Below the pieces are notes generated by a model that saw only the letters and a program-made list of their open reading frames with translations, was not told the DNA's origin and did not search any database. The translations under genes and the position numbers were made by a program. Positions 41,789 to 62,272 of a DNA stretch of 64,000 bases are shown here, piece after piece. How positions within the stretch are numbered: position 1 is the stretch's first letter; each line of letters starts with the position of its first letter. The DNA lies in contig CAJXSL010000015.1 in NCBI GenBank assembly GCA_913060875.1, forward strand, positions 62,001-126,000, written 5' to 3'. This DNA is from an uncultured Desulfobacteraceae bacterium. Its GTDB lineage: Bacteria; Desulfobacterota; Desulfobacteria; Desulfobacterales; UBA5852.

Positions 41789-44700
41789 CTATTTGGCAGT
41801 GATTCCCAGGGCCATCTCCAGCAGTTCGTCCGGAGATTCCATCTGGGGGGTCTGCGTGCCTAGCACGACGTTATGATGCCGGGAAACGAAATCAACGGTG
41901 TATCGATACAACTCGGACAACACGATCTGCCGGTCCCTGTCCCGGTCGCCTTCTCCCGCAAGCCCCTTCAATAAGGCATAGGTGAAGAGCCCATGCTTGA
42001 TCGCCGGGAATTCCTGCGACGCCTCGTTATCTTTCGATGCGGTCATCAGCGCAAAGGAAGACGATGCCGATCGTTTGGCAAGGGCATACATGTCAAAATT
42101 GCCTGCAATCGCCTGCGAATGACACGTGTCGACCATGAGCAGTCTTTTGCCGGGGATGGCACGTAAAATATCGAAAAAGACCCGCCAGCCGATGAGAGAA
42201 TCGACCTCGCCGACCGGCACGACGCCTCGGCTCCGGGGCTTGACGATGCGGCGAATATCAGCAAACGTGCCGTCACAGGGAACCATGTAGTAGTTGCCGG
42301 CACTGTCACTGAAACCATGGGAAGCCAGAAAAAGAATTGCCGTGTCGTAGGGTCCGGCCGCTTTGAAAAATGATAACTGATCCATGATCGCCCTTTTGGT
42401 GGGTTTGATCGGACTGTTATCCGTTATGGTTCGCACGTGAACGCGGCGGAAGGTCCGGCCGGCCTCTGCCTTGAATCTTTCGGCGAGCTTTTGGGCATCG
42501 TTGACAGCAAAAGACAGACTGCTGGTGGGCATGCGTGAAAAGTGGTTGATACCGATGGCCAGCAGGTAAAGATCACCTTTAACCACCGGCTGCGTCTTAG
42601 ACGTGTAAAAATGGGTTTCGGCAATACCCATGGAGTGACCACCGGTCGATTCGATCCGCAGAAAGTTCTCCGTTTGGTGCAACGGCAGATCGATTTCGTG
42701 GTCGAAACGGTCTCCGGCGCCGATGATGGCCCTCTCGCGGGCAGGCGTCAGCGGAATGTTGTTGAGATAAATTGTATAATTCTTCATTGACCGTCCTGTC
42801 CGATCGATACGAAATTTCATACGAAGGGTTTCGGAGTGGGTCCTGAATCCCGGCTCAGGGTGAACAATGGTGATGCGCGGCGGTAGTATCTGCGTCAGTT
42901 GATGTATGGAAAACTGCAAGTTTTTGTCTTCACGGATCATACTTTGGCGATCGCCCAGGCGTTTGAAACTTGTTTTGATATAATTGGGCATATAGAGCAA
43001 TCGCTCGAACTGGATGGCGGTATAAAAATCGGCCGCGCTGTCCTTCCCGTTGTTGAGGTGCCACCCGATAAGATCGTCGCCGTGCGGGGAACACATGTAA
43101 TAGCCATCGGGCGTCCAGGCAATCCAGCGTTCGCCGTCGGGATGCGGATAAAAGGCCAGGAATTCCTTGCCGTCCTGCATACGGTACCAACGGATTGTTC
43201 CATCACCGATATGACCGACGGCAATTTTGCCGTTTTCGGAAATATTGACGGCCCGGGTCACCGAAGGCACCGGTACCCGCCATAAAATGTCACCGTTCGG
43301 GTTGAAGCAGTAAATATGATGGTTAGTGCCGAGAATGAATCGTGATCCTTCAGCTTCGATCGCCAAACAGCGGGAAATTTCGCCTTTGTGATAGAATAGG
43401 GGTTTACCGTCAAGCCTTGGATAGCGCTTATGTTTCCAGCGTCGGATGTCCAGTCGCGGATGGTTCACCCGGGGATAAATAAAGGGGGCCTTGCCCGCAA
43501 TATCCATCCAGGAAACAACCCTGCCTTTCCGGATGTCAAAGACGAAGCCGCTGTTTGGGTAGGGGTCGGACTGGTAAAATACTTTGCTGGCATCCGGCGA
43601 CATACGGCATCGCTTTCTCAGTTTGCGGAAATGCAGGATGCTCGGGGGGTGGCTGAACGCCTTCTCGTGCTCGGGGTTAAGAATCCCCCAGGCACCATCA
43701 TACAAGCCATAGACAATACGGCCGTCCTTCAGGGCGCAGAGTGTATTGATGCCAATCTGGCCGATGGGAAGGGCCCTCCGCTCGCCTTTGCCCCTGCGTC
43801 CCCAGCAAAAAATGGGGAATAACTTCTCCCGTTTACCTTCCGGGGCCATGTATTCTTCATGCACGCCACCGGCATATAGCGACCGGCCGTCGCTGGACCA
43901 GACCGCCGATATCAGAAATCTTTCGATGCCGGCACAAATGGGGGAATAAAGATACCGTAGCGTATCGGCGGAATAGACATCGATATCCTTGGTATCCCTG
44001 AATGTCACAGCGAGGTTTTGGCTATCCGGGGAATATCTGATGGATATGGGGTTCCGTCCCGATCTTGTCGATTCGGTTGCTTTATGCACGATGCGGCCAC
44101 CTTCGATGCGGTAGACCAGCAAATGGCCATCGAAAGTGGCCAGGGCCAATTCGTTTTTGGTGTTGATATCCGCGCGGGTCACCCACCGATAGGGAATCCC
44201 GACCTGATCGACCAAGTCCCATCCCGGGTAGGTGTATACCCGCAGGCCGTCTCCATAGAAGACCACCAAAAATTGCCGGTCCTGGGAAAACGCCAAATCC
44301 TGAATCGAATGCGGAAAGCCTTTAAGCGTTTTAATTAGTACGCCCCTGGCTCTGTCGAAAATATAGACGACATGGGACATGTGCCAGCTCTTCCCGGTTT
44401 GACCGCCGCAGGCGATGACCTTGGCATCCGTTGATATCGCAACCGTCCGGATCCTGCCTTCCGCGCCGTCTCCGATGGGCGGTCGCAACACACGCAGCAG
44501 CCGGTAGCGGTTGAGATCCCACAAACGGACTGTTTTATCGTTGGATGCGGTAACCAGGTATTGATTATTCTGATCTGTCTCGATCTCATTCAGGCAGGCA
44601 TGGTGATTGGTCGTGTTGAGCCTGAAAATCGGCCGGCGTAATGGCACTCTTGGGCGGTAGCCTGCGGAAGCGGCCACTTGGAACTGGCCGGAAACCAATT

Positions 44701-45172
44701 GCCGGTTGCTGGCCGAGAGCACCACCGTGTAGCGGCCGGGTAGCCACCCCGTATCTGTCCAGGGCCGCCAGGCGGCACTGATGCGTGCTTCATGGCTGCT
44801 TTTTTCCAGTTTCAAAAAAACGGTCTGGACGTTGAGCAGTTCCGTATCGTTGAATCGCCAGACAGCACGTATTTCAATAGTGGTTTCTTTCTTCGACGGG
44901 GGGCCTCGCAGGGTCAATTCCCAGGCGATGGCTTCCGTTTGATCCTGGGGATAGGTGTTCGTGTAGGATCGTTTGCCAAGCGGCTTACCCGGTCCGTCCG
45001 TGGGGTAAAAACGCAATTCCCGACCAATGGATCCGATTGTAAATGCACGCCCCTTACGATCAAGGTAAGGATGGTCTATCCGGTAGCTGCAGGCCCACAT
45101 ACTGCCCAAGCCAGCCAAACCGATGGCCAGAATGTTGATAATTATCCGTCGGCGAGTCCATAACCGTTGCAT
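41789..45172 (-). CDS. WD40-repeat protein with C-terminal caspase-like peptidase domain
   Basis: The 1127-residue protein starts with a membrane anchor or lipoprotein-like signal (IIINILAIGLAGLGSMWAC). WD40-type repeats cover roughly 190-740 (for example YLVTASNDKTVRLWDLNRYR). A C-terminal caspase-like peptidase C14 domain (about 860-1127) has catalytic His952 in LASHGFSD and catalytic Cys1017 in MVDTCHSQA, with the downstream HGLFTYALLKGLAG segment of this family. Such fusions occur in bacteria and are thought to act in regulated proteolysis. The export signal puts it at the periplasmic face or outside, which is unusual for a caspase-like enzyme. The ATG follows GGGGAAAAA. The lipoprotein gene follows 55 bases later. 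Confidence 0.9.
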   Translation of the reverse strand: MQRLWTRRRIIINILAIGLAGLGSMWACSYRIDHPYLDRKGRAFTIGSIGRELRFYPTDGPGKPLGKRSYTNTYPQDQTEAIAWELTLRGPPSKKETTIEIRAVWRFNDTELLNVQTVFLKLEKSSHEARISAAWRPWTDTGWLPGRYTVVLSASNRQLVSGQFQVAASAGYRPRVPLRRPIFRLNTTNHHACLNEIETDQNNQYLVTASNDKTVRLWDLNRYRLLRVLRPPIGDGAEGRIRTVAISTDAKVIACGGQTGKSWHMSHVVYIFDRARGVLIKTLKGFPHSIQDLAFSQDRQFLVVFYGDGLRVYTYPGWDLVDQVGIPYRWVTRADINTKNELALATFDGHLLVYRIEGGRIVHKATESTRSGRNPISIRYSPDSQNLAVTFRDTKDIDVYSADTLRYLYSPICAGIERFLISAVWSSDGRSLYAGGVHEEYMAPEGKREKLFPIFCWGRRGKGERRALPIGQIGINTLCALKDGRIVYGLYDGAWGILNPEHEKAFSHPPSILHFRKLRKRCRMSPDASKVFYQSDPYPNSGFVFDIRKGRVVSWMDIAGKAPFIYPRVNHPRLDIRRWKHKRYPRLDGKPLFYHKGEISRCLAIEAEGSRFILGTNHHIYCFNPNGDILWRVPVPSVTRAVNISENGKIAVGHIGDGTIRWYRMQDGKEFLAFYPHPDGERWIAWTPDGYYMCSPHGDDLIGWHLNNGKDSAADFYTAIQFERLLYMPNYIKTSFKRLGDRQSMIREDKNLQFSIHQLTQILPPRITIVHPEPGFRTHSETLRMKFRIDRTGRSMKNYTIYLNNIPLTPARERAIIGAGDRFDHEIDLPLHQTENFLRIESTGGHSMGIAETHFYTSKTQPVVKGDLYLLAIGINHFSRMPTSSLSFAVNDAQKLAERFKAEAGRTFRRVHVRTITDNSPIKPTKRAIMDQLSFFKAAGPYDTAILFLASHGFSDSAGNYYMVPCDGTFADIRRIVKPRSRGVVPVGEVDSLIGWRVFFDILRAIPGKRLLMVDTCHSQAIAGNFDMYALAKRSASSSFALMTASKDNEASQEFPAIKHGLFTYALLKGLAGEGDRDRDRQIVLSELYRYTVDFVSRHHNVVLGTQTPQMESPDELLEMALGITAK

Positions 45173-48263: not shown

Positions 48264-48529
48264 TGGGCTGCTCCCTTACCGTAACAAAGCATTTTCCAAA
48301 AAACGGCACCGTTCGCACATACGCTTCCCCGGCCGAACACATGCTACCGCTCCCGGTCTTCGACCCGATGGAGAGCGTCCAAACCACAGCCAATCTCCAC
48401 CCACCCGCTGTTTTGTACTATAAATTTTGAATATGATTCATTCCAACCAAAAACAATTGTCTGAGGGAACGGCATCGCCATGCCCAAATTCAACCCAAAA
48501 GGACTTATTTATGTCGGTATTAAATGGTT

Positions 48530-48557
48530 AAAAGATGCCATTTGCGGATGGGCACTA
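48530..48557. repeat. Diverged MITE-like end at the stop of the CoA-racemase gene
   Basis: AAAAGATGCCATTTGCGGATGGGCACTA matches the right end of the 146-bp element (47483-47510) at 23 of 28 bases. Again its last TAG (minus strand) is the gene's stop codon. The rest of the element is not visible, so it is a solo remnant. Confidence 0.5.
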
Positions 48558-49706
48558 AATAATCTCCATCGCATCGAATGCTGCCATTTCCTCCGGGCTA
48601 TACCCAAGCTCTTGAAGAATCGCGGCAGTATCCTGCCCGAAAGCCACCGACGCATTGCGAACCCGTCCGGGCGTATGACTGAGTTTCACCGGCACACCGA
48701 TGGTGGTCTCCGTCTCGCCGGAGGCACCCGGAGCTTCGACAAACATCTCCCGTTCCCGGAACAATGGAAAATCAATGGCTTCGTCGGCCGTCTGGATACC
48801 GCTGATACACAGGTCCAGGTCGGCGAGCGCAGCCTCCCACTGGGCCAATGTTTTTTTTCGGAAAATTTCCCGGAAAGCCGCGATGATTTCCTTGCGTCGG
48901 CTGTCGTCATATTGAAAACCGGCATACTTTTCCAGACCCAACCGCTCGCAGATGGCTTTCCAGAATTTGCTTTCCACCGCCCCCATGGCCAAATGACGGC
49001 CGTCGGCGGTTTCATAAGTGTTGTAGCAGGCATAACGATGGGAAAGCATGTTGTCGCCCCGGCGCGGTGTTCCGCCGGTCAGGGCCTTCCAGTACATGGC
49101 CACGGGCAGCAACCCCACCATGCCGTCGGTCATGGAAATATCCACGTATTGGCCTTGGCCGGTTTTCTCCCGGCTAAACAGCGCCAGCAGGATGCCGATG
49201 GCCGCATTCAGGCCGCCGCCGGCCATATCGGCAATTTGAGGGCCCGGGATGGAGGGTGGGCGGTCGGCCTCGCCGATCATATCGAGGATTCCGGAATAGC
49301 CCAGGTAGTTGATGTCGTGCCCCACGCGATCCCGAAAAGATCCTGTCTGCCCGTAACCGGTCACGGAGCAGTATACGATGTCGGGCTTGACCTCCCGCAC
49401 CTTCTCATAATCAACGCCGAGCCGTTCGACCACCCCGGGACGGAACCCCTCCAGGATCACGTCGGCCCGCGCCGCCAATCTGAAGAATATATCTTTGCCC
49501 GCTTCCGATTTCAGATCGAGGGCCATGTGCTGTTTGTTGCGGCAGACATTGGGCAGGAACAGGCCGTCGGCCGCGTACTGTTTACGGTCCTCGATGGCGA
49601 TGACCCGAGCGCCATGGTCCGCCAGGATCATCGAACAAAACGGGCCGGGCAGCAATCGCGAAAGATCGAGAACCGTTACCCCGGACAGAGCCCCTTGTGT
49701 CGTCAT
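48555..49706 (-). CDS. Alpha-methylacyl-CoA racemase (CaiB/BaiF family)
   Basis: The 383-residue enzyme matches alpha-methylacyl-CoA racemase rather than a CoA transferase: GHDINYLGYSGI with His130, ADMAGGGLNAAIGILLAL with Asp160, and GAVESKFW with Glu245. These correspond to the His126/Asp156/Glu241 catalytic set of the mycobacterial enzyme, shifted by four. It interconverts (R)- and (S)-2-methylacyl-CoA so that a stereospecific dehydrogenase can act. It belongs to the acyl-CoA block, where it implies methyl-branched substrates. AGAGGAAATCACG precedes the ATG. Confidence 0.92.
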   Translation of the reverse strand: MTTQGALSGVTVLDLSRLLPGPFCSMILADHGARVIAIEDRKQYAADGLFLPNVCRNKQHMALDLKSEAGKDIFFRLAARADVILEGFRPGVVERLGVDYEKVREVKPDIVYCSVTGYGQTGSFRDRVGHDINYLGYSGILDMIGEADRPPSIPGPQIADMAGGGLNAAIGILLALFSREKTGQGQYVDISMTDGMVGLLPVAMYWKALTGGTPRRGDNMLSHRYACYNTYETADGRHLAMGAVESKFWKAICERLGLEKYAGFQYDDSRRKEIIAAFREIFRKKTLAQWEAALADLDLCISGIQTADEAIDFPLFREREMFVEAPGASGETETTIGVPVKLSHTPGRVRNASVAFGQDTAAILQELGYSPEEMAAFDAMEII

Positions 49707-49792
49707 CGTGATTTCCTCTTATGAATTTTGGTCATCGCCCCAACACCGAGATTAACACTTGGCTCAAGCCATTCCCGTAAGGACCGGGCGGC

Positions 49793-50818: not shown

Positions 50819-51961
50819 CTAAAGCCCCATGAACTTGGCGGCGATCCCCTTCATGATTTCATTGGTTCCGGCGAAAATGGACATGACCCGGGCATCCCGC
50901 AGGCCGCGCACCAGCGGACAGGCCTCGGTGCTGCCGGACTCACCGACGATATCCAGGCAGCGATTCGCAACCCGGCTGCCCAACTCGGTGCACCAGTATT
51001 TGGCCATGGACGTTTCGACGATGACATTGCGGCCTTCCACGTGATCGGCCACCAGCTTGTCAACGAAAGTCCGTCCCAGGTTGACGTCGGTGGCCATTTC
51101 CACCAGGGCAAACTGCACGGCCTGGGACCGGCTCAGAGGCCTTCCGCCCGAGGAGATTTCCTTGCAGTAAGTCGTGGTCCAGTCGAGCATGAATTCGGCC
51201 CCGGCCACACCCATGATCGCGCAAACAAGCCGCTCCTGCTGCAGTTTATCCATGAGCATGAGAAATCCCATGCCTTTGTCCCCCAAACGGTTGGCCCGGG
51301 GAATGCGGCAGTCCGAGAAAAACAATTCGGCCGTATCCTGGCTGTAGAGCCCCATCTTGTCGAGCTGGTTGCCCTTCTTGAACCCGGGAGTGCCGTCTTC
51401 CACCAGGTAGAGGGAAATGGCCTGGTGGGGATTGGCCTCGGCCGGATCTTTGGCCGCAACAATCACCAGGTCGCAGAGAATCCCGTTGGAAATAAAGGTT
51501 TTAGCGCCGTTGAGCACCACCTGATCGCCGTCTTCCTCGGCGGTGGCCACCATGCTGCTCAAGTCGCTGCCGGCCCCCGGTTCGGTCATGGCCACGGCGG
51601 TGACGATATCGCCTGAGGCACAGCCGGGAAGGTATTTTTCTTTCTGGGATGCATTGCCGTAAGAGGCGATGTAGGGCACGACAATGTCGCTGTGCAGCGG
51701 TGCGGCCAGCCCGCCGTGGTTGGTCCGGGATATCTCTTCGATACCGATAACGCCGTACCGGAAATCACCACCCAAACCACCATAGGATTCAGGCAGGGAC
51801 GTGCAGAGAAATCCCTCCCGGCCCATTTTCCGCCAGACGTCCCGGGAAACCTTATGATCGGCCTCCCATTGATCGATATGGGGCACGACTTCCCGGTCCA
51901 TGAAGGATCGCAGGCGCATGCGAAAGTCCGTGTGTGCATCCGTATACTGGAGAATTTCCAT
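50819..51961 (-). CDS. Acyl-CoA dehydrogenase
   Basis: The 380-residue FAD enzyme has the family blocks TEPGAGSDLS and NGAKTFISNG. The usual C-terminal loop Glu (YEGTNEIQ) is Ala here (IFAGTNEIMK), while Glu268 (YCKEISS) lies where isovaleryl- and long-chain-type enzymes place the base, so it resembles those. It would make 2,3-enoyl-CoA; an ETF partner is not in the window. AGAGGGTAGCCTG precedes the ATG. It is one of two adjacent dehydrogenases, 12 bases apart. Confidence 0.88.
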   Translation of the reverse strand: MEILQYTDAHTDFRMRLRSFMDREVVPHIDQWEADHKVSRDVWRKMGREGFLCTSLPESYGGLGGDFRYGVIGIEEISRTNHGGLAAPLHSDIVVPYIASYGNASQKEKYLPGCASGDIVTAVAMTEPGAGSDLSSMVATAEEDGDQVVLNGAKTFISNGILCDLVIVAAKDPAEANPHQAISLYLVEDGTPGFKKGNQLDKMGLYSQDTAELFFSDCRIPRANRLGDKGMGFLMLMDKLQQERLVCAIMGVAGAEFMLDWTTTYCKEISSGGRPLSRSQAVQFALVEMATDVNLGRTFVDKLVADHVEGRNVIVETSMAKYWCTELGSRVANRCLDIVGESGSTEACPLVRGLRDARVMSIFAGTNEIMKGIAAKFMGL

Positions 51962-51973
51962 CAGGCTACCCTC

Positions 51974-53122
51974 TTATTTGATCTTGCCGATAACACGGCC
52001 GGCAATTTTGTTCTTCAGATGAATCGTTCCACCCAGGGTCAGGTCGGCGACCTTGGCATCGCGATAAAAGCGCTCCACCTCGGACTCTTTCATGTAGCCA
52101 TAGCCACCGAAAAGCTGAATGGCTTCGTCGGCCACGGCCACGGCCGCCTTGGCGGCGGTGATGCGGGCCATGACGCCCAGGCGGTCCAGCCCTTTGCCCG
52201 CATCGCCGCAACGTGCCGCGCCATAGGTCATCAGACGGGCCTGCTCGACCTGCAGCGCCATGCCGGCAATCTTCTGCCGGGTAACCTCGAAAGCCGCCAG
52301 CTTGCGCTGGAACTGCTCGCGCTCCCTGACGTAGGCCAGGGCCCGGTCCAGAGCCCCGGCCGCCGTTCCCAGGCATTGCCCTGCGATCAGAATACCGGTT
52401 TCCTCGATAATAGTCTCGGCCTGGGGAAGCCCCCGGCCTTCTTTTCCCAGCAGATTGGCAGCCGGAAGATGTACATCGGTGAAAACCAGATCGGCACATG
52501 CCACCATGTTGCCCCCGAGTCTTCTTTCGGCATCCCGAATCGTGAGGCCTTCCTGATCGGCATCCACCAGGAAAAGACTCAACCCTTTTCCCGGTGATGC
52601 TTCCGGGTCGGTGCGGCCTAAGATCAGGTAGACGCCGGCGGCACCACCGTTCCAGACATGGGATTTGGTACCGTTGATTACCCAGTGACCGTCTTTCTTT
52701 TCCGCTACGGTAGCAACGCCTGCCAGATCACCGCCGCATTCGGATTCGAAAAACCCAAACCCGCATTGCATTTCCCCCTCGGCGATGCGCGGCAAGTAGG
52801 CTTTCTTTTGATCGGCATCGCCGTAACGCACCAGGCCTTCGGCCCCGCTGGTCGCCATGGCCAGGGCCATGCCGATGCTCGAATCCTTGCGGCAGAAGGC
52901 CTCGGCGATCAGGCAGGCCTCCAGCATTCCCAAACCACCGCCGGAAAATTCCTCTGGTAAATGGACGCCCACAAACCCTAAATCGGCCGCTTTTTTCCAG
53001 ATATCATGGGGGAAGGCATTGGCGTTTTCCAACGCCAGCGCCTGATCCTTGTCGAACTCTCCTTTGGCGAATTCCGACGCCGCCTTCAGGATTTCCTTCT
53101 GCGATTTATCCAGTGTCACCAT
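51974..53122 (-). CDS. Acyl-CoA dehydrogenase, second copy
   Basis: The 382-residue FAD enzyme includes GFGFFESECGGDLAG and NGTKSHVWNGG. The C-terminal loop is GGTIHLKNKIAG (no Glu) and the likely base is Glu267 in YVREREQF, the IVD/LCAD-type position. It differs substantially from the neighbouring copy, so the two may differ in chain length or branching preference. AAGGAGTGGAGCT precedes the ATG. Confidence 0.88.
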   Translation of the reverse strand: MVTLDKSQKEILKAASEFAKGEFDKDQALALENANAFPHDIWKKAADLGFVGVHLPEEFSGGGLGMLEACLIAEAFCRKDSSIGMALAMATSGAEGLVRYGDADQKKAYLPRIAEGEMQCGFGFFESECGGDLAGVATVAEKKDGHWVINGTKSHVWNGGAAGVYLILGRTDPEASPGKGLSLFLVDADQEGLTIRDAERRLGGNMVACADLVFTDVHLPAANLLGKEGRGLPQAETIIEETGILIAGQCLGTAAGALDRALAYVREREQFQRKLAAFEVTRQKIAGMALQVEQARLMTYGAARCGDAGKGLDRLGVMARITAAKAAVAVADEAIQLFGGYGYMKESEVERFYRDAKVADLTLGGTIHLKNKIAGRVIGKIK

Positions 53123-53299: not shown

Positions 53300-54835
53300 T
53301 CAATGCGCCTCACCCCCGGCAAATTGCTCCCGCAGCCTGAACTTGAGAACTTTCCCGGAAACATTGCGCGGCAACTCCGTCGTAATTTCCAACAGTCTCG
53401 GAATCTTGTAATCGGCAATTTTGGGTTTCAGAAATTCACGCAGGCTCTCGACATCAAGCGCCTGCCCCTCTTTGAGCACAGCAACGGCCATGACCGTCTC
53501 GCCCCATTCGGGATGGGGTTTGCCGATAATCACCGCATCGGCGATGGCGGGATGTTCGTAGATGGCGTCCTCCACCTCCTTGCTGTAGACGTTTTCCCCT
53601 CCGGTAATGATCATGTCTTTGCTGCGATCCACCAGGGTGATGTATCCTTCCTCATCCATGACACCCAAATCGCCGGACCACACCCATCCGTCACGGATGG
53701 TCGCCCGGGTGGCCTCCGGGTTCTTGTAGTATTCCTTCATCGTGGTCTCGCCCTTGATGAGCAGTTCCCCCACCACCCCCGGCGCGGTTATGGTGTTGCC
53801 TTCGGGATCCGCCAGCCGCGTTTCCATGTTGACGATATACTTCCCGCCGGCCCCGGCCTTGCGGATCTGATCCTCGGGAAAAAGGGCGATGCCGCCGGGG
53901 CCCCCCTCGGTAAGACCGCATAGACAGAAAAATTGACCCGTGCCGAATTTCTGGATCATTTGACGCACCGATTCAGCCGCCATGGGGGCGGCGCCATACC
54001 CGAAGTAACGCATGGAAGAAAGATCGTAACGGTCGAAATCGGGAACCATCATCATAAACGAATACATGATGGGGGCCCCGAAAAATTGGGTGACACGCTC
54101 CTTCTCGATGAGCGCCAGGACACGATCAGGGAGAAAATCCTTCACCACCACGTGGGTGCAGCCCAAATAGGTGCCGGGGTTGACGTAGAGGTTGAGCTCG
54201 GCGGAGTGAAACATGGGTGCGGCGTGCAGGATAATATCGCTGGGGCGCATGGAAACCAGTGAAGCGACGGTGGTGGTCAGCACCATCTGATTGTGGTGCA
54301 CGAACACCGCGCCCTTGGGCTTTCCGGTGGTACCGGACGTGTAGATGATTTCGCTTAAATCGTATTCATCCACCATTACCCCGGGGTCCCCGACGTTTCC
54401 GGCGTCAATCGTCTTCGTCAGGGATGCAACCCCTTCGAATTCATCTTCTCCAGCTGAAAAATAATGCTGCGCGGCCTTCAGCCGTGGCTGCATTTCTCGA
54501 ATGGCGGGCGCGAAGACATCGTCAAAAACAAGCGCCACCGCGTCGCAGTTGTCGAAAATATATTCGGCCTCCCGAGGGGCCAGCCGAAAGTTGACCGGTA
54601 CAGCCACCCCGCCCGCCTTGACCACGCCGTAAAAGGCCAGCAGAAAAAGATCGGAATTGAACATCCACAGGGCGACCTTGTCCCCCTTCTGCACCCCTCT
54701 GTCGATCAGCGCGTTGGCGATGGTGTTGACCTGATCATTGACTTCCTTCCAGGTATACCGGCGGTCTTCGTAAATAATCCCCAGTTTGTCAGGAACGGTT
54801 CGCGCATTACGGGCAACAAGTTCTCCAAGATGCAT
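53300..54835 (-). CDS. AMP-dependent acyl-CoA ligase, second copy
   Basis: The 511-residue enzyme has the P-loop IIYTSGTTGKPKGAVFVHHN, GDLGVMDEEGYITLVDRSKDMI and a C-terminal LPRNVSGKVLKFRLR with the catalytic lysine. The start was set at the ATG of MHLGELVARNAR, which follows AAAGGAAT; an upstream in-frame start would add a long atypical tail. It is distinct from the ligase at 45625, so the block can activate two kinds of acids. Confidence 0.88.
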   Translation of the reverse strand: MHLGELVARNARTVPDKLGIIYEDRRYTWKEVNDQVNTIANALIDRGVQKGDKVALWMFNSDLFLLAFYGVVKAGGVAVPVNFRLAPREAEYIFDNCDAVALVFDDVFAPAIREMQPRLKAAQHYFSAGEDEFEGVASLTKTIDAGNVGDPGVMVDEYDLSEIIYTSGTTGKPKGAVFVHHNQMVLTTTVASLVSMRPSDIILHAAPMFHSAELNLYVNPGTYLGCTHVVVKDFLPDRVLALIEKERVTQFFGAPIMYSFMMMVPDFDRYDLSSMRYFGYGAAPMAAESVRQMIQKFGTGQFFCLCGLTEGGPGGIALFPEDQIRKAGAGGKYIVNMETRLADPEGNTITAPGVVGELLIKGETTMKEYYKNPEATRATIRDGWVWSGDLGVMDEEGYITLVDRSKDMIITGGENVYSKEVEDAIYEHPAIADAVIIGKPHPEWGETVMAVAVLKEGQALDVESLREFLKPKIADYKIPRLLEITTELPRNVSGKVLKFRLREQFAGGEAH

Positions 54836-55012
54836 GGCATATTCCTTTCTGAGACCGGTTAGTCGATGGTAACAGTCAATGCCCGATTGGCGATGGCCGG
54901 CACCCCTCTGTTTGAAGGCAAGAGATGCCGAACTATCGCAATCCTTTTCCAACTTGCGTTACCGATTCCGCAGCCTCCTTCAGCCCTGCTGTTGCATCAC
55001 CCCGGTTAACGT

Positions 55013-56224
55013 CTATCCGTCATATTTGCCGACGATGGAGATGCTGCACACGTTCATGGACGGGAAACCGCCCAAGTTGTGGGTAAGGCCGTAAGTTGGA
55101 TTTTCCAGTTGCCGATCTCCGGCCCGCCCCAGAAGCTGGAGGTACATCTCGTAAATCATGCGCAGACCGGATGCCCCGATGGGGTGGCCGAAACACTTGA
55201 GACCGCCGTCCACCTGGCAGGGAACCTTGCCGTCGATATCGTAGACACCGTCCAGCACGTCCCGCCAGGCCTGTCCCCTTTCAGAGATATACAGGTCTTC
55301 CATGGTCACCAGTTCGGTGATGGAAAAGCAATCATGCACCTCCATCATGCTGATTTCTTTACGGGGTTCGGTGATACCCGCTTCCTTGTAGGCCATGGTG
55401 CTGGCCTTGGAGGTGGTCATGAAGTGATCCCCGTCCCAGTCATTGTAGGACATTTCTTCTCCGCTGCTCAATGCAAGCTGCAGCGCCTTGACCGAAACAA
55501 GATCATTCTTGCCCATCTTTTTAGCGATCTCGGGCGTGGTGACAATGGCGCAGGCCGCGCCGTCGCTCACCCCGCAGCAGTCGAAAAGCCCCAGAGGATG
55601 GGCAATGATGGGGGCCGCCATGATCTGTTCTTTGGAAACCGCCTTGCGCAGATGAGCTTTGGGATTTTTCAACCCGTTGGCATGGCTTTTGGCCGATACG
55701 TGGGCCATAGCCTCTTTAATGTCTTTGTCAGACACGTTGTACTTGGCCCCATAGGCCGACGCCAGTTGGGCAAATGAGCCGGGGGCGGTAATGTTGGGAA
55801 ACCACTGCCAGGTCAACGTACCGGAGTCGGACCCGACAAAACTGGGCAGTCCGCCGTAACCGGTGTCCTTGAGCTTTTCCACCCCCAATGCCAGGCAGAT
55901 ATCGTAGGCCCCCGAAGCCACGGCGTAGACCGCTCCCCGAAACGCCTCGGTCCCTGTGGCGCAGAAGTTTTCGACACGGGTCACCGGGATAAACGGCAAC
56001 CGCAGGGTCGTCGACAGCGGACACGCGCTCCGGCCCACGTTGATGCTTTCGAAACAGGTACCGAGCCAGGCCGCCTCGATATCCTTTTTCTCGACGCCGG
56101 CATCGGCGATACACTCCTCGAAGGCCTCCACCATCAACTCCTCGGCCCCCATGTCCCAGCGTTCTCCAAAGCGGGAACAACCCATTCCGATAATCGCGAC
56201 TTTATCTTTTATGCCCGTAGCCAT
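55013..56224 (-). CDS. SCPx-type thiolase (acetyl-CoA acyltransferase family)
   Basis: The 403-residue thiolase-fold protein carries the nucleophile Cys88 (VENFCATGTEAF), a His in MMEVHDCFSITE and GHPIGASGLRM near the C terminus. It resembles the SCPx/lipid-transfer-protein thiolases, but without a fused SCP2 domain, which is instead on neighbouring proteins. It should cleave 3-ketoacyl-CoA. It is immediately downstream of the four-domain fusion containing a DUF35-type OB domain; such domains often partner with thiolases. AGGGAGGACACCGT precedes the ATG. Confidence 0.85.
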   Translation of the reverse strand: MATGIKDKVAIIGMGCSRFGERWDMGAEELMVEAFEECIADAGVEKKDIEAAWLGTCFESINVGRSACPLSTTLRLPFIPVTRVENFCATGTEAFRGAVYAVASGAYDICLALGVEKLKDTGYGGLPSFVGSDSGTLTWQWFPNITAPGSFAQLASAYGAKYNVSDKDIKEAMAHVSAKSHANGLKNPKAHLRKAVSKEQIMAAPIIAHPLGLFDCCGVSDGAACAIVTTPEIAKKMGKNDLVSVKALQLALSSGEEMSYNDWDGDHFMTTSKASTMAYKEAGITEPRKEISMMEVHDCFSITELVTMEDLYISERGQAWRDVLDGVYDIDGKVPCQVDGGLKCFGHPIGASGLRMIYEMYLQLLGRAGDRQLENPTYGLTHNLGGFPSMNVCSISIVGKYDG

Positions 56225-56300: not shown

Positions 56301-59030
56301 CTATATTTGGAACAGTTTTTCGAGCAACTGGGACTTCATGATATCCCCTTCGATCACCAGCTTACCGGCCGTAAAGGCCTGCATGGGAGGCAGTTTGCCG
56401 CTCATCATGGCGGCAAAATCCGTATCCTCCATTTTCAGGGTGCAAACGGGTTTGGCATGCTGCCCGGCGGCAATGGTGCAGGCGCTGTCTTTGATGACCG
56501 CATGCCAGTCCCCGCCGGCGCCGCCGGAGATGTTGAACTGGAAGATCACCTCCACTCCGGCCGCCGCCTCGGTTTTGAACGTCGTCGCCAAATTGTCAAA
56601 AATTGCCTGCACATCGATGCCGCTGTCTCCACCCTCGCTTGAGGTGTCTTCGGTTTCAGGCGGTGCCGGTGGGGTCATGAGATCCATCAGTGCCGCATTG
56701 GCATCGCTCAACTCCTTGGCGCCTTCCAGCGCATTGATGGCATCGAAGTTGTCGGCAACCATTTCGACGGTCGGCAATTCTTCGGTGGCCAACTGGATGC
56801 CGGGCCCGGTCATGACGGCCGCCCGGTTGTAGTACCCCATCCCGGCGTTGAAGATTTCACCGGTCGGCTGGCACGTCTCGCTGCAGAGATACATCGCCAT
56901 GGGGGTCACGAACTCGGGTTTCATCTGCGCGAACAGGTCCGGGGGCAGGATATCCTCGGTCAGCCGTGATGCCGCAATGGGCGCAATGGTGTTGCATTTG
57001 ACGTTGTATTTCCGGCCTTCCAGTTTGAGGGTGTTCATGAGGCCCACCAGGCCCAGCTTGGCCGCCGAATAGTTTGTCTGGCCGAAGTTGCCGTAAAGGC
57101 CGGCGGCCGAAGTCGTCATGACGATGCGGCCATAGCCTTTAGCCTTCATGATCTTGAAGGCCGGCCGGGTGACATTATAAGCGCCGTTGAGGTGAACATC
57201 GACCACCGCATTCCAGTTTTCCGGCGTCATCTTGGTAAAGCTCTTGTCCCGGAGAATGCCGGCGTTGTTGATCACGATATCCACAGTGCCGAAAGCATCC
57301 AGGGCGGTTTTAACGATGGACTCGCCACCCTCCACCGTGGCCACGTTGTCGAAATTCGGTACAGCTTCCCCGCCCAGTTCCTCGATCTCGGCGACCACTT
57401 TTTCAGCCGGCGAGCGCGAGCCGTCTCCGGCGCCGTCACGGGCGCCGCCCAGGTCATTGACCACGATCTTGGCGCCCCGTTTGGCCAGCTCCAGGGCATA
57501 GGTTCGTCCCAAACCCGCCCCGGCGCCGGTGATGATGGCCACCCGACCGTCAAAGCGAACCTTTTTCATTTCTTCCACCGCACCGGGCGCCGGAACCGCT
57601 TTCCAGAAGTAGTTCACAAACCCGCGCTGAGCGTCTTCAACCTTGCGTTTCAGCGCCATCTGCACCCGCAGCCCGACCTTCACTTCGTCCAGCTCACAAT
57701 CGGTAAAATCCGCCATTATCCGGCCCCCGTCGTCGAACTGGACCATACCGTAAATGGCCGGCGGATCGACGGAGATGGCCAGCATATCCCCCGTAAACGT
57801 CTTGACCTTGGCCGGGGCATCGGCAAATTCGTAATCGTCCTGGCTGTTCAGGGCGCCGCAAGAGGGGTTGACGCAATAGTCCATTTTCGGGAACTGGGGT
57901 GTGCCGCATTTCCGACATTTACCGCCCACCAGGCCAAGGAGCATTTTGTTCTTCCGCCACAGAACGGTGGTCGCCGTCTGGGTGGGGGCTTCGGCCCGAA
58001 TACCCATCTCGGTTTGGATCAAATCACGGAATTTGAGCCACTTCGCATAGTTGTCGATCACTTTTTTGTTGGCCAGGGAACCGGACACGCCATTTCGCCC
58101 CGCCAACGCTTTTATCTGGTCGGTGACCTTGAAGTAGAGGGCATTGGCGCCCTGCCCGAATCCTACCAGCAGGATCCGTTCACCCGGCTGGGCCTTCTCA
58201 AGGGCGGCAATGAACATCATAAAAGCGTGGGCCGCACCGGTCTCGCCACAAACCTCATGCATATTGTCCACCAATTTTTCGGGGGTGGCCCCCAGCTTTT
58301 TGGCGATTTTCTTGTGATCCCCCTTGAAAAAGCAGGGATAGACCAGCTTATCCACATCATCCATGGTGATGCCGAGCTTGTCGAACAGACCGTTGACCGC
58401 CTTGGGAATGATTTCGCCGTAGCCGATGTCCCGGGTCCAGCGTTCCTCCCAGACATAATCGTACTTTTGGAACGCGCCCCGGTAGTGATCCACGAAATCG
58501 CAGGACAAAGAATAAGATCCCAAAAACTCGGCAATGACGTTCTCATTGCCCACCGAAAGGGCGGCCGCACCGTCGCCGAACCACATTTCATAGAAATAGG
58601 CGGTTTTGGTCTCGCGTTTGTCCGCCGCGGTCACCAGGATTTGCTTCCGGTTGCCGCTCTGAACCGACTCCAGCGCCGTGATCAGTGCGGTGGTGGCCAC
58701 TTTTTGTGACGCGGTATAATCGGCGGTGATGATCTCATCGGAAAGATTCAGGGCGGCCGAGACAATACCGGCGTTCTGGCGGTCGGCAAACGGCAGGGTG
58801 GTGGAGGCCAGGTAAAGGGCATCGAGTGCTGACTTGTCTCCGCCCGCCAGGCAGTCGCGGGCGGCGGCCACCGCCATGGTTATGGAATCTTCGTCATAGT
58901 TGCACATGGACCGTTCCCCCTGGGAAACCGCCATGATGGCCGGGGCGAACCACCCCATATGCTGAACGATGGATGACCGGCTCAGTCGCAGGTGCGGGAT
59001 ATAGGCACCGAAAGAAGTAATTCCTATCAT
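56301..59030 (-). CDS. Four-domain fusion: HMGS-like / DUF35 OB-fold / SDR / SCP2
   Basis: The 909-residue protein contains an HMG-CoA-synthase-like thiolase-fold domain (about 1-310), a zinc-ribbon plus OB DUF35 domain (about 360-480; Cys372, 375, 386 and 391), a short-chain dehydrogenase (about 490-760; TGAGAGLG 501-508, catalytic Ser641, Tyr654, Lys658) and a C-terminal SCP2 sterol-carrier domain (about 800-909). The HMGS-like domain has no Cys at the nucleophile region (DYTASQKVATTAL, Ser108), so Claisen-type condensation is unlikely. The SDR would oxidise a 3-hydroxyacyl-CoA and SCP2 could bind the acyl or sterol substrate. AAGGAGACAAACA precedes the ATG. The gene lies between the thiolase and another SDR/SCP2 enzyme. 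Confidence 0.85.
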   Translation of the reverse strand: MIGITSFGAYIPHLRLSRSSIVQHMGWFAPAIMAVSQGERSMCNYDEDSITMAVAAARDCLAGGDKSALDALYLASTTLPFADRQNAGIVSAALNLSDEIITADYTASQKVATTALITALESVQSGNRKQILVTAADKRETKTAYFYEMWFGDGAAALSVGNENVIAEFLGSYSLSCDFVDHYRGAFQKYDYVWEERWTRDIGYGEIIPKAVNGLFDKLGITMDDVDKLVYPCFFKGDHKKIAKKLGATPEKLVDNMHEVCGETGAAHAFMMFIAALEKAQPGERILLVGFGQGANALYFKVTDQIKALAGRNGVSGSLANKKVIDNYAKWLKFRDLIQTEMGIRAEAPTQTATTVLWRKNKMLLGLVGGKCRKCGTPQFPKMDYCVNPSCGALNSQDDYEFADAPAKVKTFTGDMLAISVDPPAIYGMVQFDDGGRIMADFTDCELDEVKVGLRVQMALKRKVEDAQRGFVNYFWKAVPAPGAVEEMKKVRFDGRVAIITGAGAGLGRTYALELAKRGAKIVVNDLGGARDGAGDGSRSPAEKVVAEIEELGGEAVPNFDNVATVEGGESIVKTALDAFGTVDIVINNAGILRDKSFTKMTPENWNAVVDVHLNGAYNVTRPAFKIMKAKGYGRIVMTTSAAGLYGNFGQTNYSAAKLGLVGLMNTLKLEGRKYNVKCNTIAPIAASRLTEDILPPDLFAQMKPEFVTPMAMYLCSETCQPTGEIFNAGMGYYNRAAVMTGPGIQLATEELPTVEMVADNFDAINALEGAKELSDANAALMDLMTPPAPPETEDTSSEGGDSGIDVQAIFDNLATTFKTEAAAGVEVIFQFNISGGAGGDWHAVIKDSACTIAAGQHAKPVCTLKMEDTDFAAMMSGKLPPMQAFTAGKLVIEGDIMKSQLLEKLFQI

Positions 59031-59115: not shown

Positions 59116-61227
59116 TTAGAGTTTGAACAGCTTTTCGATCAGCTGGGACTTCATGATGTCGCCTTCGATGACCAGTTTGCCGGAGGAAAAGGCCTGCATG
59201 GCCGGCAGTTTTCCCGTCATCATGGCAACGAAATCCTCCGCATCCATTTTCAATGTGCAGGTCGGTTTGTCATGGCATCCGGCTTCCACGGCACAGCTTT
59301 GATCTTTTATAGCCGTGTACCAGTCGCCGCCGCCGGCACCGGCAATAATATACTGGAAGACCACATCGACGCCGGCCGCCGCTTCCGGTTGAAAATGATT
59401 CCCCAGGTCCGCGAAGATGTCACCGACCGAGATGCCAGTCGGATCGTCTTCACCGGCCGCCGCTTCCGATTTAGGCGTAAATGCCGCCATGAGATCGCCG
59501 ATCTGCTCGTTGAGATCGACGTACTCCTTGGCCCCTTTAAGGGAAGCGATTTTGTCCAGGTTGTCGACAATGTCTTCGAGTTCCGGAAACCCCTCCCCTT
59601 TGGCGACCACAGCACCGGGACCGGTAACGACGGCGGCCCGATTGCAAAATCCCATGCCCACGTTGTAGATGTTGCCGCTCACCGGGCAGTCTTCCGAACA
59701 GAGGAAAAGGGTCATGGGGGTGACGAACTCCGGTTTGAGTTTCTCGAACAGATCCGGGGGAAGGATATCTTCGGTAAGCCGTGAGGCTGCCACCGGCGCT
59801 ACCGTATTGATCCGTATGTTGTATTTCTTCCCCTCGAGTTTCAGGGTGTTCATGAGGCCTACCAGGGCAAGTTTGGCCGCGGTGTAGTTGGTCTGGCCGA
59901 AATTTCCGTAAAGCCCCGCCGCCGACGTGGTCATGACGATGCGCCCGTAGCCCTTGGCCTTCATCACGGCAAAGGCCGGGCGGGAAACATGGTAGGCCCC
60001 TTTGAGATGGACGTCGAGCACCGCATGCCAGTTTTCCGGTTCCATCTTGACAAAACTCTTGTCCCGCAGGATTCCGGCATTGTTGATGAGGATATCGACA
60101 GTTCCGAAGGTGTCGAGAGCGGTCTTGACGATGGCTTCGCCCCCCTCCACCGTGGCCACGTTGTCGTAGTTGGCCACGGCTTCGCCACCAGCCGACGTAA
60201 TTTCGGTCACCACCTGATCGGCCGGAGCCGCCGAACCGCTGCCCGAACCATCCCGGGCCCCGCCCAGATCGTTGACGACAACCTTGGCGCCCCGCCGGGC
60301 CAGTTCCAGAGCGTAGGCCCTTCCCAGGCCGGCGCCGGCACCGGTAACAATGGCCACCTTGCCGTCATAGCGAATCTCACGTTTGGGGATATCGCCGTAC
60401 TCGAAGATACCGTTGTCGATAACGATTTCTTCGTTTTCCATATTGATCACCCGCCACAGGGCCTTGCCCTCGTCGGTTTTCCAGATCAGGGTTTTGATGG
60501 GGATCCCCGGGTATAGGGTCTTGGAAAAACGGCAGGCCATCCGGCGGGCTTTCTCGGGTTCTCCCGGGATCAGGCAGTCCATCAGGGCCCGGCAGGCAAA
60601 CCCGTGGGTGCACAGGCCGTGCATGATGGGTTTTTCGAAACCTGACATTTTGGCAAATTCCGGATCCACGTGCAGACTGAACACGTCCCCGGAAAGACGG
60701 TAGATCAGGGGCTGATCAGGGGAAGGGGTCGCCTCGATACTGAAATCCGGATCCCGGTCGGGGAAAACCACTTCGTTTTTGGGGGCGTCCTGCCCGCCGA
60801 ACCCACCGTCGAGACGGCCGAAGATCGTACAGATGCTGGTGAAGAGCTTTTGCCCATTGGAGTGAAAGGTGTCGCTCTCACCGATCACCAGGGCGCCCCG
60901 GCCTTCGCCCTTGTCGTAGATGTGGCTGATCTTGCCCTTGGTGGTCATGGTGCCTTCCACCGGGATGGGATTGTGGAAGATCAATTCCTGTTCACCGTGG
61001 AGCACGCCGGCCAGGTTGATGTTGGACTCCAGCCCGATCTGCATCAGGATCTTGAAAATGGATGCAATGGAAAAACTGGGAATGACTTTCAGGTCTTTTT
61101 CATAGCAGTAGTCCAGCTCGGGAAACCCGGCGCCGACCCCAAGGGCATACAAAACAACATCTTTCCAGTCGTAATCCTTGGTCAGGGGGGCAAACGGTTT
61201 GCCCACCGCGTCAAGATTCAATGCCAT
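59116..61227 (-). CDS. Multifunctional enzyme: hydratase-2 (MaoC) / SDR / SCP2
   Basis: The 703-residue protein has a MaoC/hydratase-2 double hot-dog domain (about 1-285; motif LSGDVFSLHVDPEFAK with Asp181 and His186), an SDR domain (about 290-560; TGAGAGLG 295-302, Ser435, Tyr448, Lys452) and an SCP2 domain (about 590-703). This mirrors the peroxisomal D-bifunctional protein MFE-2, with hydratase and dehydrogenase in reversed order. It hydrates trans-2-enoyl-CoA to (R)-3-hydroxyacyl-CoA and oxidises it. The hydratase motif lacks the Asn of the D-x-N-P-x-H signature (Phe183). AAGGAGG lies before ATG 61227. It is the first gene of the block after the palindromic operator. Confidence 0.88.
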   Translation of the reverse strand: MALNLDAVGKPFAPLTKDYDWKDVVLYALGVGAGFPELDYCYEKDLKVIPSFSIASIFKILMQIGLESNINLAGVLHGEQELIFHNPIPVEGTMTTKGKISHIYDKGEGRGALVIGESDTFHSNGQKLFTSICTIFGRLDGGFGGQDAPKNEVVFPDRDPDFSIEATPSPDQPLIYRLSGDVFSLHVDPEFAKMSGFEKPIMHGLCTHGFACRALMDCLIPGEPEKARRMACRFSKTLYPGIPIKTLIWKTDEGKALWRVINMENEEIVIDNGIFEYGDIPKREIRYDGKVAIVTGAGAGLGRAYALELARRGAKVVVNDLGGARDGSGSGSAAPADQVVTEITSAGGEAVANYDNVATVEGGEAIVKTALDTFGTVDILINNAGILRDKSFVKMEPENWHAVLDVHLKGAYHVSRPAFAVMKAKGYGRIVMTTSAAGLYGNFGQTNYTAAKLALVGLMNTLKLEGKKYNIRINTVAPVAASRLTEDILPPDLFEKLKPEFVTPMTLFLCSEDCPVSGNIYNVGMGFCNRAAVVTGPGAVVAKGEGFPELEDIVDNLDKIASLKGAKEYVDLNEQIGDLMAAFTPKSEAAAGEDDPTGISVGDIFADLGNHFQPEAAAGVDVVFQYIIAGAGGGDWYTAIKDQSCAVEAGCHDKPTCTLKMDAEDFVAMMTGKLPAMQAFSSGKLVIEGDIMKSQLIEKLFKL

Positions 61228-61274
61228 GGTGTCCTCCTTCATACCAAAAGATTAACGGATTTCCATCAATCAAT

Positions 61275-61290
61275 TCCATCATTTGATGGA
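61275..61290. promoter_or_regulatory. Candidate TetR operator before the acyl-CoA block
   Basis: TCCATCATTTGATGGA is a perfect 16-bp palindrome apart from its two central bases, 48 bases upstream of the multifunctional enzyme start. It matches 15 of 16 bases of the site before the tetR gene. A second TTCCATCA half-site occurs at 61261. This is the expected position for repression of the block. Confidence 0.65.
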
Positions 61291-61382
61291 TCCAAAATTG
61301 TAAAAACCGATATCCCCTTACGTTCACGCCAACGCCAGCCGGTGGCCCCAAAAAAAACAGGCGCATCGGCATCAATGCCGCA

Positions 61383-62012
61383 TCATGAATCCTTCCGGGT
61401 AAAGGCCGGGATCAGGATAAATTTCAGTGTTTCTTTGACAACCTCCAGGTAGGCATCCCGGTCCAGGCTCAGCATGGGCCGGAAATAGTTTTCCCCGGAG
61501 GCAAAATTAATAATGGAGTTCCACACGGCGAGCACCCGGGCATTGGCCTGGGGCGGCACGTGGGTTTTGTCCAGGGCCAGCCCCATGGCCACAGCGATAT
61601 TGGCCAGGTGCTCGGTCATACGGGTGTCCAGGTCCGAACGGGTCCGCGTTTTAACAAAATAGCTGAAGAGCATCAGATTGGAGGCTTCGGGATTGTGAAA
61701 CAGATAGTCGCTCATGACGTCGATAGCCACTTCCAGGCGCACATCGAGGGGCTTGCCGTGAACCAGTTTTTCGATTTCCCTGAGCTTCAGGCGAATATCT
61801 TCGTTAAGGTCGGTGAGAACCGCTTCGTAAAGATCCTGTTTTTCCCCCCAGTGGTAGTAAAGGGTGGATATGTCGATGCCGACCGCCTTGGCGATCATGC
61901 GTGTCGTGACCCCGTGAAACCCGTATTCACCAAACAGCTTGCGGGCCGCAGAAAGAATACGCCCTTTCATGGAATCAGGCGCCTGGCGGGCTTTTTCAAG
62001 GGGAGACGGCAT
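61383..62012 (-). CDS. TetR-family transcriptional regulator
   Basis: The 209-residue protein has an N-terminal TetR helix-turn-helix (about 14-60; ILSAARKLFGEYGFHGVTTRMIAKAVGIDISTLY split across its turn) and a helical ligand-binding C-terminal part. The ATG of MPSPLEKAR follows AAAGGAAT and was preferred over an in-frame start 120 bases upstream. It is on the same strand as and upstream of the acyl-CoA block. Given the neighbours, an acyl-CoA ligand is likely. Confidence 0.9.
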   Translation of the reverse strand: MPSPLEKARQAPDSMKGRILSAARKLFGEYGFHGVTTRMIAKAVGIDISTLYYHWGEKQDLYEAVLTDLNEDIRLKLREIEKLVHGKPLDVRLEVAIDVMSDYLFHNPEASNLMLFSYFVKTRTRSDLDTRMTEHLANIAVAMGLALDKTHVPPQANARVLAVWNSIINFASGENYFRPMLSLDRDAYLEVVKETLKFILIPAFTRKDS

Positions 62013-62122
62013 GGAAGCGACATTCCTTTCAATGGCAACGGCCGTGCGCTTATCCCAGCGAATCGCACTGGGTTCGGTCCATCTATGGGAGGGACCAGCA
62101 GGGCCGCTATCATTCCAGCGAC

Positions 62123-62128
62123 TATATA
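62123..62128 (-). promoter_or_regulatory. Extended -10 candidate of tetR
   Basis: On the minus strand TGGTATATA reads as an extended -10 (TGn followed by TATATA). The operator candidate at 62141-62156 lies just upstream of it, about where a -35 would be, a position suited to repression. Confidence 0.45.
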
Positions 62129-62140
62129 CCAAGACTTGTT

Positions 62141-62156
62141 TCCAACATTTGATGGA
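62141..62156. promoter_or_regulatory. Candidate TetR operator in the tetR promoter
   Basis: TCCAACATTTGATGGA is a near palindrome and differs from the operator at 61275-61290 by one base. It lies 129 bases upstream of the tetR start. This would give autoregulation. Confidence 0.6.
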
Positions 62157-62272
62157 GAACCATACCCAATCACTAATCGGATGTCAACGGGTAATTTACA
62201 TTCATTTAATTCCGACCAGCCCGAATATTGTGCGCGTTCGAAACCTTCTTGGGCAAGGCTTCAGGGGCACCG

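Follow-up and report, generated by a model that had tools for sequence, protein, structure and literature searches.

FadR of Bacillus, an acyl-CoA-responsive repressor of beta-oxidation, shares the TetR fold with the regulator described here, but with a TM of about 0.57-0.60 at 13-16% identity. The archaeal FadRSa of Sulfolobus acidocaldarius is likewise a TetR-type protein with a beta-oxidation-type gene cluster, few genomic sites and a semi-palindromic operator; it is a repressor released by acyl-CoA, and a second dimer is found at some of its operators (PMC6449355). This likeness is one of description, between an archaeal protein and a bacterial one. In Proteobacteria, PsrA and FadP are TetR family regulators that control fatty-acid degradation, as is proposed here; FadP was reported to be confined to betaproteobacteria, and just five of the regulators in that study had orthologues in deltaproteobacteria (PMC5343134). 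PsrA, FadP and LiuQ are other TetR regulators than the present one, which reaches 38.5 bits on the PsrA model NF053516, where the cut-off is 300. Within its own bacterial group, Desulfococcus multivorans carries FadR2, a TetR-type regulator proposed for fatty-acid (myristinate) genes, which stands with fadD5, acdA9, etfAB and fadF and not with a multifunctional enzyme (MFE) block (PMC5109826). A further TetR of Desulfobacteraceae, from a SulP cluster, is described as a repressor with a 16-bp palindromic upstream operator, much as is predicted for the present one, but is set apart by its sulfate transport neighbourhood (PMC11887813). FadR2 and the SulP-cluster TetR were the only candidates for TetR fatty-acid regulators of this group in the open-licence literature, where the motif retrieved only unrelated papers and a description of the present regulator was not found, although one may exist elsewhere, e.g. 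in RegPrecise. Complete-oxidising sulfate reducers have numerous sets of acyl-CoA genes, for most of which the regulators are unknown.

The window, i.e. the whole stretch of 64,000 nucleotides analysed here, comes from a sulfate-reducer-like bacterium and contains such a gene set behind a tetR gene (Table 1). While the longest tetR reading frame encodes 249 aa and begins at TTG 62132, homology begins at residue 38-40, so that ATG 62012 is the most likely start. The protein belongs to the TetR/AcrR family: PF00440 matches with 61.7 bits (cut-off 24, E 5.8e-17), placing a helix-turn-helix domain at the N-terminus, and the AlphaFold2 model is all-helical, including the ligand domain (mean pLDDT 86). 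As in other members of the family, a predicted inverted-repeat operator overlaps the promoter of its own gene. Profile matches were confined to the general TetR_N domain, and scores against every NCBIfam regulator model, the KstR, FasR, AcrR, RutR and CecR equivalogs included, lay far below cut-off. In fold comparison, the model matched other TetR proteins only generically (TM about 0.6-0.7), and the ligands of the regulators matched differ. Since FasR, RutR, CecR and FadR are matched about equally well, the structure does not decide the ligand, and no single ligand class stood out in PDB sequence and fold searches.

Table 1 Predicted features of the tetR locus and the enzyme block behind it (window positions).
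Feature	Position	Strand	Details
tetR promoter, sigma-70-type	62159..62187	-	TTGACA 62187-62182, N17, TATGGT 62164-62159
Predicted operator O1	62127..62156	-	core 62141-62156; third half-site TGG 62131-62129; between tetR promoter and tetR
tetR, TetR/AcrR family regulator	61383..62012	-	209 aa; PF00440, alignment, tree
Possible -10 of a weak O2 promoter	61297..61302	-	TACAAT; putative, read from the sequence
Predicted operator O2	61261..61290	-	core 61275-61290; third half-site again offset by 13 bp; zero mismatches to extended pattern
MFE708	59116..61242	-	708 aa; hydratase-2 / MaoC / SDR / SCP2; directly after tetR in 51/80 orthologue loci
MFE909	56301..59030	-	909 aa; HMG-CoA-synthase-like / Zn-ribbon OB / SDR / SCP2
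Thiolase	55013..56224	-	403 aa; NF004810, above cut-off
AMP-binding acyl-CoA ligase	53300..54952	-	550 aa
Two acyl-CoA dehydrogenases	51974-53122 and 50819-51961	-	382 and 380 aa

Two enzymes of this block stand out in their domain arrangement. The order hydratase-2, SDR, SCP2 in MFE708 is unlike that of peroxisomal MFE-2, in which the dehydrogenase comes first and is followed by hydratase-2 and SCP2. MFE909 is an unusual fusion of an HMG-CoA-synthase-like domain, a Zn-ribbon OB domain, an SDR and SCP2; it stands beside the thiolase in relatives as well, and its SDR-SCP2 half resembles that of MFE708. A counterpart of the acyl-CoA ligase at the same place was absent from the relatives checked.

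Before the MFE708 gene, the initial annotation had placed a 16-bp palindrome, with a one-mismatch copy at the tetR promoter and no other copy. The exact site, TCCATCA-TT-TGATGGA, is indeed found within O2, although this core, TCCATCATTTGATGGA, falls short of a perfect palindrome: its two inverted 7-bp arms (TCCATCA / TGATGGA) are separated by a 2-bp centre that is not palindromic. The one-mismatch copy, TCCAACATTTGATGGA, lies within O1 as described, and the whole window holds no third copy with one mismatch or none. If as many as three mismatches are allowed, the core matches seven times in the window where 0.9 would be expected, and none of 100 shuffles reached seven. In pattern searches of the 5.88-Mb genome, the symmetric pattern TCCAWCANNTGWTGGA occurs without mismatch at the same two places only, both inside the window. 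With one mismatch it is found at 84068 on contig 13, 71 bp before the gene of a TetR paralogue of 57% identity, while its other occurrences at one mismatch fall within long open reading frames and fit the extended operator described below more poorly. Beyond the window, the genome has one further convincing site, the one before the tetR paralogue. Abundance of the motif at non-promoter positions, which had been named as an argument against an operator, was not observed in this genome-wide search.

Alignment of 53 promoters on the core revealed that both sites, though correctly recognised, are each part of a longer, oriented element of 30 bp with the consensus TCCATCAwwTGATGGAAaCAwwTGnTGGaA. 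T, G and G at offsets 25-27 are conserved in 52, 41 and 51 of the 53 promoters, and the stretch GGAAACAwwTGnTGGA repeats most of the core with a shift of 13 bp. Because of this offset repeat, the operator can be read as a pair of overlapping palindromes, the centre of one 13 bp from that of the other. Such an arrangement might admit two dimers, as QacR-type operators do; in the sequences it is seen as a second, overlapping set of half-sites that is conserved at a 13-bp step. In one related genome (G213, locus L255), the operator about 37 bp before tetR has a further half-site at another 13-bp step, which suggests a longer array. O1 shows zero mismatches to TCCAWCANNTGWTGGAA-N8-TKG and a PWM score of 37.2; O2, 32 bp before the MFE708 gene and facing that gene in the way that O1 faces tetR, has the best score in the window (41.2), the training median being 42. 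Genome-wide, the extended pattern occurs with zero mismatches only at O1 and O2 and with one mismatch at the paralogue promoter, after which matches fall to background level. An 18-bp pattern with fixed outer T/A had mixed real sites with chance matches; the extended pattern separated them better.

In a first comparison of 58 genomes, a TetR orthologue (E below 1e-60) was present in 19, the present genome included. Fourteen relatives have one site with no more than one mismatch at 40-155 bp before tetR, as a rule the sole copy in the surrounding 8-20 kb, and the promoters of non-orthologous TetR control genes were free of the motif. The extended operator without mismatch is found in 13 of the 19 genomes with the orthologue and in 1 of the 39 without (p 1e-7), and with up to one mismatch in 18/19 and 4/39, respectively (p 3e-10), p-values that overstate independence because the genomes are related. 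In G008, which is among the 13, the copy at tetR has one mismatch and the perfect copy lies elsewhere. A wider set comprised 80 orthologous tetR loci, mostly from Desulfobacterales (Desulfobacterota). In 54 of these loci the 350 bp upstream of tetR contain the core with no more than one mismatch, where shuffles would lead one to expect 0.01, and site density is 2.0 per kb upstream of tetR and 0.027 per kb elsewhere; several of these other sites precede the enzyme gene where it is present as a divergent copy. As this set includes some of the genomes in which the motif was first examined, 16 more matches from a phylum-wide sample were inspected, of which 11 were new to the set and 6 of these 11 carried the operator. 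MFE708 follows tetR in tandem on the same strand in 51 of the 80 loci; the PWM score exceeds 12 in 50/50 tandem loci with upstream sequence (L133 is cut by a contig end), the PWM having been trained on most of these sites. Near the tetR orthologue of some loci (L085, L092, L093, L172, L186), no operator was found.

Enzyme genes distant from tetR can retain the site. In G029 it precedes MFE708, and in G018 sites precede both MFE909-thiolase and a thiolase-ligase pair, away from tetR. A perfect extended operator is also seen in G044 (L101 at 1612, L102 at 3356), in L101 before an acyl-CoA dehydrogenase gene; a TetR orthologue was not found in this assembly, which is about 90% complete. Another arrangement is present in L154, L158, L164, L169 and L185, where MFE708 is divergent and two opposite-facing operators, ~120-210 bp apart and 1.2-1.6 kb before tetR, point one towards MFE708 and the other towards another gene.

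Sequence comparison has established the two sites and how they are conserved, the layout of the promoter, the order of the genes and the joint occurrence of site and regulator. Together these point to O1 and O2 as operators of the TetR encoded between them, which would repress tetR and the enzyme block until released by an acyl-CoA-type ligand; we give this reading a probability of about 85%. Its outline, with autoregulation and control of the block, had been predicted in the initial annotation. Phylogenetic footprinting (54/80 loci for the core, 50/50 tandem loci by PWM) and the pairing of orthologue and operator across 58 genomes bear it out, and autorepression and block control are well supported by comparison. 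Ligand-free TetR would bind each 30-bp operator, probably as two dimers on the overlapping palindromes. On O1 it would cover the region just downstream of the -10 and block RNA polymerase sterically, and this repression could extend from tetR to the co-directional enzyme genes by read-through; the terminator-like hairpin that follows tetR scores at chance level (folding z 0.24), which lends no support to a terminator before MFE708. TetR on O2 would add a block directly before MFE708. The operators precede genes that are of beta-oxidation type by sequence (MFE708, MFE909-thiolase, thiolase-ligase and acyl-CoA dehydrogenase). As these targets are CoA-thioester enzymes, the ligand is presumably an acyl-CoA or related thioester, and TetR would most likely be released by a CoA thioester that the block produces or consumes. 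Regulator, operator and likely targets can be read directly from the sequences of dozens of species, which offers a defined DNA probe, a short target list and a way to approach the substrate of the MFE / HMGCS-like / thiolase block.

The control of the block differs in one respect from what had been proposed. The block of relatives (MFE708, MFE909, thiolase, acyl-CoA dehydrogenases) usually opens with tetR, and one site can therefore control all of it. Since this single tetR-proximal site serves the block in most relatives, O2 is an extra, probably an addition in the present genome. Of the 51 tandem loci, only that of Desulfosarcina alkanivorans PL12 (L135) shares with the window an operator between tetR and MFE708, about 30 bp before MFE708 in both cases, and alignment of the two intergenic regions is ambiguous on a common ancestry of O2. 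Perhaps O2 is a non-functional copy, arisen by chance or left as a relic, and O1 by itself controls the block, as 50 of the 51 tandem loci of relatives, including the closest two (L116 and L117), lack O2, and as it has no clear promoter, with no recognisable -35 and nothing reported by the promoter scan. We regard this as unlikely, however, because O2 fits the extended operator better than O1, has the right orientation and the third half-site, and has its similarly placed counterpart before the same gene in D. alkanivorans.

At tetR, the promoter ends with its -10 only 2 nt before O1, and about 42 of 53 promoters of relatives have TTGAC at a distance of 29-34 nt upstream of the operator. Transcription usually begins about 7 nt after the -10, and the predicted tetR start consequently falls inside O1. 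An extended -10, TGGTATATAG (minus strand 62131-62122), had been named earlier as the element next to the site; a promoter does adjoin the site, but TGGTATATAG is unconserved, lies on the downstream side of the operator and shares bases with its third half-site, and was rejected as main promoter in favour of the conserved upstream one. Alternatively, TetR could activate instead of repress, or at O2 merely road-block elongation, which the position of O2 so close to the start codon and the lack of a clear -35 would suit. The position of O1 over the predicted start, behind a good TTGACA-N17 promoter, is the layout of a repressor and makes this alternative improbable.

The genome has about 20 TetR-like matches, among them the 57%-identical paralogue, whose operon contains a thioesterase-like gene and two acyl-CoA dehydrogenases. 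As its operator is near-identical, this paralogue may bind the same sites too, and it is conceivable that another regulator binds them and that tetR is merely one of its targets. This is very improbable given that the motif tracks the present orthologue group across genomes and is missing from the promoters of other TetR genes, and that TetR-type regulators of this sort usually autoregulate. That the palindromes work as RNA hairpins or terminator parts has next to no chance: a transcript might fold at an inverted repeat that closely precedes a start codon, but the letters themselves are conserved beyond mere pairing, the partnerless third half-site included, and the element keeps a fixed distance from -35 and -10, with transcription expected to start inside it.

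Returning to the TetR encoded between O1 and O2, a broader reading, to which we would give even odds, is that it represents a so far undescribed regulator which governs CoA-thioester breakdown throughout the lineage of complete-oxidising Desulfobacterota, that its asymmetric operator consists of two overlapping palindromes (13 bp apart) over the transcription start, and that the paralogue, by sharing this operator, may couple two acyl-CoA operons.

Elsewhere in the window, a 414-aa reading frame (48480-49724, plus strand) has no Pfam or NCBIfam match, is antisense to a 383-aa reading frame and may not be a gene. On the minus strand, positions 41789-45172 encode a protein of 1127 aa that combines WD40-type repeats with a caspase-like Peptidase_C14 domain.
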